64,000 bases of DNA from Stutzerimonas stutzeri (GTDB taxonomy: Bacteria; Pseudomonadota; Gammaproteobacteria; Pseudomonadales; Pseudomonadaceae), in the NCBI RefSeq assembly GCF_024448955.1, contig NZ_JAMOIH010000019.1, positions 1 through 64,000 of the forward strand, read 5' to 3'. Below the pieces are notes generated by a model. The model ran no database searches, was not told the DNA's origin, and worked only from the letters and a program-made list of their open reading frames with translations. Below, in pieces: positions 2,719 to 12,010 of the stretch. Both the position numbers and the translations under genes were made by a program. The first letter of the stretch is position 1, and each line of letters opens with the position of its first letter.

Positions 2719-3234
2719 ATGAAACGACTTTTCAAAACTTCTCTCCTGGTAGCCGCCATGCTTCCCGCTATCGCAGTTGCCGCTCCGGTGGCAGGTGATC
2801 GTGAAGTTACCTTGAGCGGTGCGGGAAGTAGCGATAAGGACTTCGACGATACGGTATTCTCGGTACAGGGTAGTTGGGGTACTTATCTTGATGAGCGATC
2901 CATGTGGGGCATTCGGCAAACGGTTAACGCCCGCGATTCTGAAGGTGAAAGCGTGCAGTTCGATGGCTCCACCCGAGTGTTTTATGACTATCACTTCGGT
3001 AGTGGAAACACTCGCCCATTCATTGGCCTGAGCGTGGGTGGAGTCTACGGCGAAGAAGTGGACGAGACCTTCATGGGTGGACCGGAACTCGGCATCAAAT
3101 ACTGGGTTCAGGACAAGACGTTCATCACTGCGATGGCTGAATATCAGTTTCTGTTCAAGAGCGGAAGCGATGCGCGAGATCGTTATGACGATGGAGCGTT
3201 CTTCTATAGCGTCGGTATTGGTTACAACTATTGA
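2719..3234 (+). CDS. Small outer-membrane beta-barrel protein
   Basis: Predicted secreted outer-membrane protein of 171 residues. Residues 1-22 form a Sec signal peptide (MKRLFKT positive region, hydrophobic core, AVAA cleavage motif). The mature part shows alternating polar/hydrophobic strands with Gly and aromatic residues and ends in the aromatic GIGYNY, a typical barrel terminus recognised by the BAM complex. Its size fits an eight-stranded barrel of the OmpA/OmpW-like type; no enzymatic motif is visible. The gene is less GC-rich than the surrounding core genes. A strong hairpin terminator follows immediately. Confidence 0.75.
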   Translation: MKRLFKTSLLVAAMLPAIAVAAPVAGDREVTLSGAGSSDKDFDDTVFSVQGSWGTYLDERSMWGIRQTVNARDSEGESVQFDGSTRVFYDYHFGSGNTRPFIGLSVGGVYGEEVDETFMGGPELGIKYWVQDKTFITAMAEYQFLFKSGSDARDRYDDGAFFYSVGIGYNY

Positions 3235-3321: not shown

Positions 3322-4113
3322 TTAGCCTTCAACCAGATTCCGCAAAAAATTCTGCAAGGCTAACCCCGGTTCGTCATCTTCCGAAGTGATCATCTGAATT
3401 CCCCATTGGCTGAGAATTTCTTCCTGCACCGGGTTGGGTTTGTGCGAGAAGACATAGGATATCGGCCGGACGCCAAGGGTTTCGTGTTCGTTCCAGATCT
3501 TCGATAGTTTGTAGAACAATAATCGAATGTTGGTATCCGAAAGGCTGTAGCCAATAAACAGAACGGCTTTGCTCAATGTGTCGGCGCGTAACTTGATATC
3601 CAGCGGCGTTTCGAATTGCAGGCGCTCGTAATAGCTCGTTTCGTCGAGCACGATCGAGTCATCGTCATCGAAGTCGCCGTGGAACTTGACGATTTGCCTG
3701 ACGCCATCGCGGGCCTTTACCAGGTCACTGGCATTGGCGATCTTGATGTAACCAACGCCATGAGCATCATGGGCGTTCTCCAACCAGCGGTCGTAGTTGG
3801 TCGTGTAGATCGCTGGAAACCGACCTTGAACGATCAGCCGGTGAATCTCCGAATCGCGGATCTCGATGCTCTTGTGCCACTCCCGGTCCATCCAGCTGCG
3901 CAGTGGCCCGATGTTGCCTTTCCTGATGCGGTAGTACTCGGCAAGCGAGAGGAAGTTTCCATAGGTATCGAAGACATCGGGGTCGTAATCGAGTTGCTGG
4001 GCAATTTCGTTGATCAGGTCGCGCCAGGGCGGTAATCCGATATTGGCCGACACGCCGGAGCCTACGAACAGAATCAGGCGGTTATGCCGGTACGCCTCCA
4101 GAAGCTTCTGCAT
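3322..4113 (-). CDS. SIR2-like NADase-type effector (KomC-like)
   Basis: Cytoplasmic protein of 263 residues with a SIR2_2-type Rossmann domain. Visible motifs are the NAD-binding GSGVS (18-22) after a FVGSG strand, TTNYD (104-108) carrying the catalytic Asn106, KFHGD (143-147) carrying the catalytic His145, and [11 protein letters not shown] near residue 200. The zinc-binding cysteine pairs of sirtuin deacetylases are absent, as in bacterial immune SIR2 NADases. It is encoded directly behind the HAM1-like gene (9-bp gap, same strand), so the two are almost certainly cotranscribed. Its base composition is more AT-rich than the flanks, suggesting transfer. NAD+ depletion triggered by the HAM1 partner is inferred from the KomB-KomC arrangement of the Kongming system; function has not been shown for this protein. 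Confidence 0.85.
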
Positions 4114-4122
4114 CTATACCTC

Positions 4123-4671
4123 TCAGACCCGGCGCAAGTGATTGATGAAGGCGTCCAACGCCCGCTTGCGCATGGAAAGCTCGTTATGGACGCCACCCAA
4201 CTCGGCGAAGGTGCAGGAGTAGCCGTCGGGAATGAACACGTTGTCCCACTCGAAGCCCTCTGCACCCGCTGGTTCGCGGGAAATCCTGCCGGTAACTTCA
4301 CCCTCGAAGAAATGCCGCTTGCGGCCGTCGCAGTAGCCGATCAGCGAACGTGCCACCGCGGAAGGATCGTCCAGATTGCCGATCAGTTCGGAGAAGCGCA
4401 CGGCGTGCAAACGATCCCAGAACGTCTGGGTCAGGCCGCCGGGAAAGCCGTTCAGGCTATTGATGAACAGGCCCGAGTGCTCGACGAAGACCGGTTTGCC
4501 AATCATTTTGAAGGCGTCCATCAGCTTGTCACTGACTAACTGATGCAGATCTTCGGTTTGCTGTTCCACGATGCGCACCGGGAAGCTGATGATCTCGATA
4601 CCGCTCTGCTCGAGAAATTCCCGTGCGTCGCGAATTTTCTGCTCGTTGACCGAGGCAAAGCGGATCTTCAT
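4123..4671 (-). CDS. HAM1/ITPase-fold protein with altered active site (KomB-like)
   Basis: A 182-residue member of the HAM1/RdgB/ITPA fold. Recognisable elements are SVNEQK (7-12, the TGNxxK loop), VFVEHSGL (61-68, family VEDTCL/ADDSGL), FPGG (76-79), SREPAG (131-136), FEWDNVF (140-146, family FGWDPxF) and SMRKRAL (166-172, family SHRxxAL). The aspartate that acts as catalytic base in RdgB/ITPA is His65 here, and the SHR histidine is Met167, whereas Lys12, Glu64, Asp143 and Arg168 are kept. The protein therefore probably binds a deaminated purine nucleotide without efficient hydrolysis. It is the first gene of the pair with the SIR2 effector. The housekeeping RdgB is expected elsewhere in the genome. 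Confidence 0.82.
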   Translation of the reverse strand: MKIRFASVNEQKIRDAREFLEQSGIEIISFPVRIVEQQTEDLHQLVSDKLMDAFKMIGKPVFVEHSGLFINSLNGFPGGLTQTFWDRLHAVRFSELIGNLDDPSAVARSLIGYCDGRKRHFFEGEVTGRISREPAGAEGFEWDNVFIPDGYSCTFAELGGVHNELSMRKRALDAFINHLRRV

Positions 4672-4700
4672 CTAATCACCCTGACTGCTGTTCGAAGCTG

Positions 4701-4715
4701 CGGATGCCGCATCCG
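4701..4715. repeat. Small palindrome upstream of the HAM1-SIR2 pair
   Basis: CGGATGccgCATCCG lies about 30 bp upstream of the HAM1-like start codon and about 70 bp downstream of the haemoglobin stop. It could be a weak terminator of the haemoglobin gene or an operator for the pair; no T-run follows. Confidence 0.4.
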
Positions 4716-4783
4716 AGCATCGTTATCCCACAGAGTTATGACGCAGCGATGTGCCCAGGGTTCGGCCTGTCGATCCGCGTCGG

Positions 4784-5233
4784 TTATGGCAGGGGCGAGT
4801 GCGGGTGCGCCGGGCACGACTGTTGTCCGGCTTGGAGGATGCGTTCCGCCGGTACCCGCAACTGCACCAACAGGTAGTCGGCGAAGTCCGCTGAATAGTC
4901 CTGCTTGGCAATGGCGAGCGCCATGCATTCGAGCCAGGCGTCCCGCTCGGTTTCGCCCACCGTCCAGCGTCTGTGGAATTGCGGGATGCTGATGCTGCCG
5001 AACTTCTCGGCGTAACGGCGCGGTCCGCCCAGCCAGCCACAGAGAAACGCCGCCAAACGTTCGCGCGACTCACTCAGGTCCTGCGGATACAAACGGCGTA
5101 CGCAATGGGCGGCTTCGTGCTCGTCCATGATCCGGTAGAAGTCCGCGACCAGCTGTTGGATGCCGGCTTCGCCGCCGGCTGCCTTGAAAGAGGCGTCGCC
5201 GATGCCGAACGGAGCGTTGGAGGTTGTACTCAT
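4784..5233 (-). CDS. Group II truncated haemoglobin
   Basis: Predicted haem-binding 2-over-2 globin of about 149 residues, of the group II (YjbI/TrHbO) type, probably involved in oxygen or nitric oxide handling in the cytoplasm. Family features include the N-terminal GGEAGIQQLVADFYRIMDE helix region, YPQDLSESRERLAAFLCGWLGGP (E helix), the proximal-histidine segment FHRRWTVGETERDAW, and the Trp of helix G in DAWLECM. An upstream in-frame ATG exists at 5287, but the family begins close to MSTTSNAPFG, so the start at 5233 is preferred. The gene is divergent from the universal stress gene and shares an upstream region containing a possible ANR/FNR site. Confidence 0.88.
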   Translation of the reverse strand: MSTTSNAPFGIGDASFKAAGGEAGIQQLVADFYRIMDEHEAAHCVRRLYPQDLSESRERLAAFLCGWLGGPRRYAEKFGSISIPQFHRRWTVGETERDAWLECMALAIAKQDYSADFADYLLVQLRVPAERILQAGQQSCPAHPHSPLP

Positions 5234-5273
5234 CGATGTCTCGCAAAGGCGTTGATTGTTTCCGGTGCCGGGA

Positions 5274-5287
5274 TTGATCCAGCGCAA
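5274..5287. promoter_or_regulatory. Possible ANR/FNR box
   Basis: TTGATccagCGCAA resembles the TTGAT-N4-ATCAA palindrome of oxygen-sensing ANR/FNR regulators, with a perfect left half and three of five matches on the right. It lies between the divergent haemoglobin and universal stress genes, both of which belong to families often controlled by ANR. A TATGCT -10-like hexamer for the stress gene is at 5328-5333. Confidence 0.4.
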
Positions 5288-10393: not shown

Positions 10394-10513
10394 GATGCTT
10401 CGCTCCTGGCTGAGCGGGCGATTCTAGTCGAGCAGGGCTAGGGCGGGGCAGCGGTCTTGGTAAAGCCGTCATGCCGCGCTAGGCTCGGCTTTCTTATCTA
10501 TCGAGTGCGATCC

Positions 10514-12010
10514 ATGCCAGTGCCCCTGAACTTCAAGGACAAGATCACCCGCCAACGGCCCTACGGCCAGTTGGAGCCGGGGATGCGCGCCTCGGACGGC
10601 AATCTGCACGCGGTCATCGACCAGCTGGAAAGCGACCGCGGCCGCATCATAAATTCGGCGGCGGTGCGTCGCCTGCAGCAGAAAACGCAGGTGTTCCCGC
10701 TGGAGCGCAACGCGGCGGTGCGTAGCCGGCTGACGCATTCGTTGGAGGTCCAACAGACCGGTCGTTTCATCGTCCGTACGCTATATAAGCAGCTTGGCAA
10801 CAAGGCCAGCCTGTATGGCCTCGATGATCTGGAAGGGGCGCTGGAAAGCCTGGTGGAGATGGCCTGCCTGATGCACGACATCGGCAATCCCCCGTTTGGG
10901 CACTTCGGTGAGTTCGCTATCAGTGAGTGGTTTGCACGTCACTTGGAGGCTCTTTTCGAAGCCGCCGACCCGGTGGGGCAGGGCGATGCCGAGCTGCGCG
11001 CACGTATGCTGCTCGATCTCAAACAGTTCGAAGGCAACGCTCAGGCGATTCGTCTGGTGGTCAGCCTGTTGCGGTTGAACCTGACCTATACCCAGACGGC
11101 CGGTCTGCTCAAGTACGTGCGGGCGGCCTACGCGCCCAAGCCTGACAAGGGCACGCCAGGCGCCTATCTGCACAAGAAGCCGGGCTTCTATCTATCCGAA
11201 GCGCCGTTCGTGGATGATTTGCGCACCGCGCTGGGTCTGCACCCCGGCACGCGTCATCCCGTTGCTTACATCATGGAAGCAGCGGACGACATCGCTTATT
11301 GCTTGGCCGATATCGAGGACTCGGTGGAGAAGGGCATCTTCACCATTGAACAGCTGGCGCAGCTGCTGGTAGCCAAGTTCGCTGAGCACGGGTCGCCGGA
11401 CGAGCCGATCGCACCAACCGGGCGCAGCTTTCGCAGCATGGTCGCCTATGCCGAATCGCGGGCGCGCAAGGAGCCGATCAACAAGGTCGGCGAGTTCTTC
11501 ATCTGGTTGCGCGTGAATATGGTCCATCCGCTGGTGCAGCATGCGGCTCAGCAGTTCGTCGACAACATCGAAGCGGTCTATCACGGCACGCTGGACCGTG
11601 CATTGTTGGAAGATGCCAGCCTGGCCAATGCCATCGTGCAAACCTTCAAAGACGTGGCGATGGATCGGGTGTTCTGCCACCGGGAAGTGGAAACTCTGCA
11701 ATTGCAGGGCTATCGCATCCTGCAAGGCTTGCTCGACGCCTACGCACCGCTGTTGCGCGTCGCTCCGGAAACCTTCCAGGCATTGACCGAGGGCGGCTGC
11801 CGCCGTGAGCCGCATCTGCAAATGCTCGCGCGGCGGTTGCCCAGCCAGCTCATCAAGGCCTACCACGAAGCCATGAAAGCCCACCCTGTGGATTCGCCTG
11901 ATCAGCCGTTGTGGGAGTTCTACTACCGCTGCCGAATGCTGCAGGATTTCGTCAGCGGCATGACCGATCAGCTCGCGCAGGATGAATACCGGACCCTTTC
12001 CGCCTTGTAG
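10514..12010 (+). CDS. dgt: Deoxyguanosinetriphosphate triphosphohydrolase
   Basis: Cytoplasmic HD-domain enzyme that hydrolyses dGTP to deoxyguanosine and triphosphate, adjusting dNTP pools. The 498-residue length is close to E. coli Dgt (505). Metal-binding HD residues are visible at His75 (THSLEVQQ) and His121-Asp122 (MHDIGNPPFGHFGE), followed by AADDIAYCLADIEDS carrying the last Asp. The start at 10514 (MPVPLNFKDKI) is preferred over an in-frame upstream codon at 10457, since family members begin close to this point. Some Dgt homologues limit phage replication, but nothing here indicates more than housekeeping. Confidence 0.92.
   Translation: MPVPLNFKDKITRQRPYGQLEPGMRASDGNLHAVIDQLESDRGRIINSAAVRRLQQKTQVFPLERNAAVRSRLTHSLEVQQTGRFIVRTLYKQLGNKASLYGLDDLEGALESLVEMACLMHDIGNPPFGHFGEFAISEWFARHLEALFEAADPVGQGDAELRARMLLDLKQFEGNAQAIRLVVSLLRLNLTYTQTAGLLKYVRAAYAPKPDKGTPGAYLHKKPGFYLSEAPFVDDLRTALGLHPGTRHPVAYIMEAADDIAYCLADIEDSVEKGIFTIEQLAQLLVAKFAEHGSPDEPIAPTGRSFRSMVAYAESRARKEPINKVGEFFIWLRVNMVHPLVQHAAQQFVDNIEAVYHGTLDRALLEDASLANAIVQTFKDVAMDRVFCHREVETLQLQGYRILQGLLDAYAPLLRVAPETFQALTEGGCRREPHLQMLARRLPSQLIKAYHEAMKAHPVDSPDQPLWEFYYRCRMLQDFVSGMTDQLAQDEYRTLSAL

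Follow-up and report, generated by a model that had tools for sequence, protein, structure and literature searches.

A HAM1–SIR2 gene pair resident in Stutzerimonas as a putative KomBC module without KomA

The window, which is the whole 64,000-nt stretch of Stutzerimonas stutzeri contig NZ_JAMOIH010000019.1 analysed here, encodes an adjoining HAM1–SIR2 pair that we read, with a probability of roughly 0.6, as a functional, genus-resident KomBC without KomA, guarding against phage and triggered by a non-canonical purine nucleotide whose formation needs no dedicated deaminase. Kongming (KomABC), the system with which the pair is compared here, was reportedly described by Zeng et al. in Science in 2025. 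As set out in excerpts of two reports, KomA, a phage deoxynucleotide kinase and the host NDK make dITP, KomB binds dITP, and KomBC then cleaves NAD+ (PMC12774641, PMC12948488). Among titles and abstract openings of papers about Kongming or about a HAM1/ITPase paired with SIR2, a coverage that leaves the founding Kongming paper outside, we found no report of HAM1–SIR2 loci lacking KomA.

Both genes lie on the reverse strand. The putative komB-like HAM1 sensor gene (4123–4671) encodes 182 aa (PF01725, 3e-36), and the putative komC-like SIR2 NADase gene (3322–4113) follows 9 bp after it and encodes 263 aa (PF13289, 2.5e-23). A 112-bp gap (4672–4783) separates komB from the upstream gene, also on the reverse strand, which is the truncated haemoglobin that the first-pass annotation had named (4784–5287; PF01152, Bac_globin, 5.7e-24). 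The true start of this globin is probably an internal ATG, as the matches in nearly all other genus genomes begin at about residue 12–24. On the downstream side, the convergent gene called an outer-membrane protein in that annotation is indeed present on the forward strand (2719–3234); its family assignment is less secure, with a weak match to the outer-membrane beta-barrel family PF13505 (E 0.0045) that falls below the family cut-off. These Pfam results cover nine selected proteins of the window, and both neighbours are placed outside the system as syntenic flanks. The HAM1 and SIR2 identities assigned earlier were right and can be sharpened, with KomB and KomC as the best solved relatives. 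A dGTPase gene (10457–12010; PRK04926, 652 bits) lies about 6 kb from the pair.

The HAM1 protein has KomB (8zsg, E 3e-61) as its best PDB match, and the SIR2 protein has KomC (8zsf, E 5e-108). Modelled with AlphaFold (mean pLDDT 86.9), the HAM1 protein finds its best structural match in the resting KomBC complex 8zsg (Z 25.7, rmsd 1.6, 182 aligned residues), and the dITP-bound KomBC(H146N) complex 9xvc scores Z 25.6. Ordinary ITPases reach Z 24.3, with the human ITPA–ITP complex 2j4e at 23.8. The fold alone hardly separates KomB from ordinary ITPases; the signature residues do. The window protein reads VEHSGL, FEWDN and SMR, the genome's own RdgB on contig C2 reads ADDSGL, FGYDP and SHR, and PH1917 reads EDSGL, FGYDP and SHR. 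The catalytic signature of housekeeping HAM1/RdgB proteins, the D of DDSGL/EDSGL together with SHR, is absent from the window protein, and the match to 8zsg in sequence and fold, with VEH and SMR, gives it the signature of KomB. The VEH histidine appears to stand where ITPases have their signature aspartate, a correspondence to human numbering that we draw from the aligned sequences. In the alignment, VEH and SMR are both present in 25 of 25 KomB rows from KomABC loci; within the window's clade H65 and M167 are each kept in 27 of 28 rows, and the SMR methionine is replaced by N in 5 of the 17 other BC-type rows. His145 of the window's KomC aligns with the H146 altered in the KomC(H146N) construct of 9xvc, and this catalytic position is H in all 70 aligned rows. 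Judged by its sequence, the protein encoded next to KomB is thus predicted to belong to a SIR2-type NADase family with its catalytic histidine retained.

The gap upstream of komB contains an element conserved across the genus loci (4737–4763, reverse strand). It takes the form GAAC-N16-CGTC in 26 of 27 loci and GAAC-N17-CGTC in the remaining one, 52–95 bp upstream of komB. The 27 elements represent 18 distinct sequences, NTA comes next in 23 of them, and the window copy is GAAC-N16-CGTC-ATA. The element is present in S. azotifigens and S. urumqiensis despite a different upstream gene; upstream of komB in P. asuensis and P. duriflava it was found in neither of the two loci, and upstream of komA it occurs in 1 of 30 KomABC loci. 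For the extended form CGAACC-N14-GCGTC-N-TA, the window site is the only perfect match in the genome. We take the element to resemble the consensus of an ECF-sigma promoter. A search for a regulon returned six one-mismatch matches in the genome besides the element's own site and 13 for a reversed control; near matches are thus no more frequent than in the control, and the result points to no particular sigma factor. A LexA-type site was also considered upstream of the genus komB and dropped, as CTG-N10-CAG occurs in 2 of 19 loci and at different places.

Going by the SIR2 gene, the closest named relatives are S. stutzeri and its kin. Of 56 genus genomes, 41 have matches to both komB and komC, and neither gene is matched in the other 15. 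The komC gene is full-length in 39 of these 41 genomes, split over contigs in G040 and decayed in G049, where komB and komC are both decayed at the usual site (locus L123). Five more weak komC matches in the genus (23–30% identity) were read as other SIR2-type proteins and set aside. A KomC search of 298 Pseudomonadaceae genomes (E up to 1e-40) gave 46 with a match: 40 from the window's genus, three from genus g6, whose loci are two-gene, and three others; in one of these, G174, a fragment of komB adjoins the end of a contig. The pair occupies one syntenic site in the genus. The globin gene adjoins HAM1 in 22 of 28 named loci, two of them with an opposite ORF in between; at L021 and L066 a different ORF was picked for the globin place, and L022, L023, L025 and L026 have other neighbours. 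The globin (PF01152) is matched in 48 of the 56 genomes, also where the pair is absent. Among eight of the 15 pair-less genomes for which the globin region was compared, six have an outer-membrane protein or SSF gene 36–405 bp after the globin with no komBC between, and in the other two the far flank was not recognised.

KomB and KomC protein distances track those of five flanking genes (r 0.87–0.97, 19 loci), a correlation that none of 2000 permutations reached. The median dN/dS of komC is 0.053, from 140 usable pairs out of 300, and that of komB is 0.149, from 227 of 300; both fall within the 0.034–0.203 spanned by seven neighbours. Many dS values approach saturation, with medians of about 1, and the close-pair values come from eight komB and 13 komC pairs. 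The pair is under purifying selection and vertically descended, and is no decaying remnant. Its absence from 15 of the 56 genomes, together with one decayed copy, indicates that it is dispensable.

The core-like synteny of the pair also fits a housekeeping role. The fixed chromosomal site, the vertical descent, the upstream element of its own and the globin neighbour would suit a sentinel of the nucleotide pool with no part in defence, which cuts NAD+ when deaminated purine nucleotides accumulate, for example under nitrosative stress in these denitrifiers. We nevertheless regard this explanation as unlikely: the globin is there with or without the pair, and patchy loss with one decayed copy fits defence better.

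A deaminase partner was sought throughout the genome. The 64-kb window encodes no PF00962 deaminase, because searching the entire genome in all six frames gave a single match, on another contig (C6:53174–54085). This bears out the first-pass annotation, which had seen no deaminase beside the pair and no KomA-like gene in the window. The C6 gene is a separate adenosine deaminase by NCBIfam (554.8 bits, cut-off 419) and is distant from KomA, scoring 65 bits against the KomA of L028, to which 25 other KomA proteins score 289–681 bits. A KomA protein search (E up to 1e-40) found no KomA in the 56 genus genomes and, among the 298 Pseudomonadaceae genomes, detected it in two (G123 and G173), both with komABC loci. 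Among 50,697 phage records, KomA-like deaminases occur in eight, none of which reaches 27% identity; these come from Acinetobacter, Enterococcus or unnamed-host phages, and the KomC-like SIR2 matches in annotated phages amount to five records, all weak (25.7–29.6% identity).

The use of a deaminase encoded elsewhere, also raised in that annotation, would leave the pathway complete but split: the C6 adenosine deaminase would yield deoxyinosine compounds, and phage and host kinases would convert these to dITP. The genome does hold this one PF00962 gene, an NCBIfam adenosine deaminase, and 55 of the 56 genus genomes have a match. However, PF00962 is equally common where KomBC is absent, and the C6 gene is far from KomA. 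KomA was also sought in trans where other loci are two-gene or broken: of 13 such genomes, nine gave only distant matches (25–29% identity, best 70 bits) and four gave none. A dedicated partner elsewhere in the genome is unsupported, and supply in trans is a second alternative that we likewise hold to be improbable. Because KomA, one of the features by which membership of Kongming was judged, is missing from its operon, the window pair is not filed as Kongming; we class it as a variant without KomA, whose action is probably like that of the KomBC half.

The relatives of KomC place this two-gene arrangement in a broader context. The 84 KomC rows (83 loci and the window) comprise 37 komBC (BC), 26 komABC (ABC) and 19 komC alone (C), with one further BC carrying a komA fragment and one C carrying a komB fragment; the loci of the underlying homologue search are the best 80 of 165 relatives, and the two- and three-gene proportions are not population frequencies. 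Dropped before the KomC tree were L066 and L072 (both truncated where their contigs end), L112–L114 (treated as near copies of L104), L042 (like L039) and L130 (frameshifted SIR2); at L029, an ABC locus, komB is cut short in frame. The window's clade consists of 28 rows, the window included, from the genus, P. asuensis and P. duriflava (SH-aLRT 100%), and all are BC. The other nine BC rows, including the Pantoea and Acinetobacter plasmid pairs, fall outside it. In a joint KomB and KomC tree of 41 rows the clade has a support of 100/100 and KomA presence changes at least five times; a single clade uniting it with the plasmid pairs, a group chosen after an earlier tree, is rejected (p-AU 0.007). 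The tree does not fix its root, and KomA may have been lost or, in some lineages, never gained.

The two-gene state is thus shared by all 28 clade rows and stable across the genus, which supports the minimal two-gene variant suggested in the first-pass annotation. The same annotation held that the locus would be a broken remnant if close homologues always carried an adjacent deaminase; none of the 28 rows carries one, and a deaminase is often present only in more distant relatives, many of which are KomABC. Broken Kongming loci do exist, with a komA fragment at L034, komB fragments at L039 and L042 and the decayed pair at L123, but that the window pair is such a remnant, left to decay after komA was lost, is very unlikely, and we reject it for this clade on the intact komC (full-length in 39 of 41 genomes), the low dN/dS and the shared two-gene state. 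Least probable of all is a housekeeping ITPase lying by chance beside an unrelated SIR2 gene, for although the Ham1p_like match is well over its cut-off, the canonical RdgB is encoded on C2, VEH and SMR are common to KomB, and in the 56 genus genomes this HAM1 was never seen without komC, a joint presence and absence that contradicts chance adjacency.

Outside the genus, related loci take several forms. A three-gene query matched 82 of 5,426 E. coli genomes, with at least 80% of the query covered in 78, and in the one record examined the Kongming locus lies among prophage genes. Three viral contigs (L112–L114) carry komABC with scores like those of the E. coli locus L104, and on the Vibrio parahaemolyticus plasmid pHLA (L128) komABC is located a few kb from a tet(B) resistance region. 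L042 and L148 have komB fragments near the contig end, on contigs of equal length. On Pantoea and Acinetobacter plasmids (L102, L103 and L141–L147), the order HAM1–SIR2–yebG is found in all nine stretches, with no annotated deaminase. All nine also have a LexA-box-like site, CTGTAT-N6-ACAG, in the interval from komC to yebG, and the 250 bp upstream of komB contain no such site. A komC-like SIR2 occurs in 96 Pantoea plasmid records, and Pantoea ananatis pPANA10 (L130) has the same plasmid-type locus with a frameshifted, unannotated komC. Solo KomC-like SIR2 genes (L127 on Sinorhizobium meliloti pSymB, L129 and the C rows) have no komB or komA in the stretch examined; their hosts include rhizobia, Bacillus relatives, Acidobacteriota, Aeromonas and others. 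Pfam searches of ten neighbouring ORFs at nine such loci revealed no common partner, apart from adjacent Ada/AlkA-type repair genes in two Aeromonas.

The KomB of the window's clade differs from its relatives in a loop on the base side. Outside the clade, 63 KomB positions show at least 95% constancy over 35 rows; the clade has lost three of them, K52, Q141 and C144. Two of these, Q141 and C144, belong to the FQWDC motif of KomB, which aligns with the FGYDP base-side loop of ordinary ITPases. Both residues are kept in 25 of 25 ABC rows and in all 17 BC-type rows from elsewhere, one of which has a komA fragment. Within the window's clade, 27 of 28 rows carry E at position 141, whereas position 144 is split among D (13 rows), N (11), S (two) and C (two). 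The FQWDC loop, taken as a membership feature of our own that is unpublished, is FEWDN in the window KomB. A second solved 'KomBC complex', 9v0g, is distant from both and keeps VEH with the loop FHWDP; the loop therefore varies among KomBC lineages. Loss of KomA alone does not force the change, because the Pantoea pairs keep FQWDC.

KomB diverges faster relative to KomC in the two-gene groups, with a KomB/KomC slope of 2.51 in the genus and 4.01 in the Pantoea-type plasmids against 1.05 in ABC loci; this ratio depends partly on the range of divergence, the ABC slope being 1.15 at KomC distances below 0.2 and 1.53 below 0.12, and we do not use it as a main argument. The faster divergence of KomB may reflect retuning or relaxed constraint on the sensor. 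Because the loop has changed, a trigger nucleotide other than dITP is a real possibility, if well short of the favoured case. In a tentative extension of the same idea, the Stutzerimonas KomB, in a lineage without KomA, would have been retuned by the replacement of FQWDC with FEWD and, in most rows, a following N or D, such that KomBC is triggered directly by a phage-made or infection-released nucleotide distinct from the dITP made by KomA. If true, the retuned KomBC would sense unusual dNTPs for immunity in a single step, with no deaminase involved.

For the pair as a KomBC module that defends without KomA, we propose the following mechanism. KomB, with a HAM1 fold whose usual catalytic signature has been lost, would act as a nucleotide sensor and form a complex with KomC, the putative SIR2-type NADase. 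During phage infection a non-canonical purine (deoxy)nucleoside triphosphate would appear without a dedicated deaminase, its likeliest source being the host or the phage, as the first-pass annotation had also considered. Binding of this nucleotide by KomB would free KomC, leading to destruction of NAD+ and arrest of the infected cell. We infer by analogy with Kongming both that the pair does the same job as its KomBC and where the ligand comes from.

A sensor and an NADase kept genus-wide without a deaminase would imply that the trigger arises in another way, or that the sensor reads something else; in both cases one would learn what unusual nucleotides are exposed when phages infect. In addition, resident KomBC loci will be overlooked if Kongming is annotated through KomA.

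Among known systems, the window pair most resembles Kongming. A KomB-like HAM1 gene and a KomC-like SIR2 gene adjoin in the same order, the resting and dITP-bound KomBC complexes are the best structural matches, and the KomB signature and the KomC histidine are present. In contrast to published Kongming, which in the available excerpts uses KomA for its signal (PMC12774641, PMC12948488), the pair has no KomA, either adjacent or elsewhere in the genome. It also occupies a fixed chromosomal site in the genus, whereas Kongming lies in a prophage in one E. coli record, and it has FEWD followed mostly by N or D in place of FQWDC and a conserved upstream element of its own. The HAM1–SIR2–yebG loci of Pantoea and Acinetobacter plasmids share the two genes and the lack of an annotated deaminase in the stretches examined, but they form a separate lineage, keep FQWDC and have yebG next, with a LexA-box-like site between. 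RADAR (RdrAB) is comparable in that deaminated purine nucleotides (ITP and dITP) accumulate on phage infection; according to the excerpted account, it makes ITP and dITP itself through the deaminase RdrB (PMC9994260), whereas the window encodes a putative sensor and effector without a deaminase. The RdgB/ITPA ITPases, finally, share the HAM1 fold with the window KomB (2j4e, Z 23.8) and differ from it at the signature positions, with DDS or EDS in place of VEH and SHR in place of SMR.
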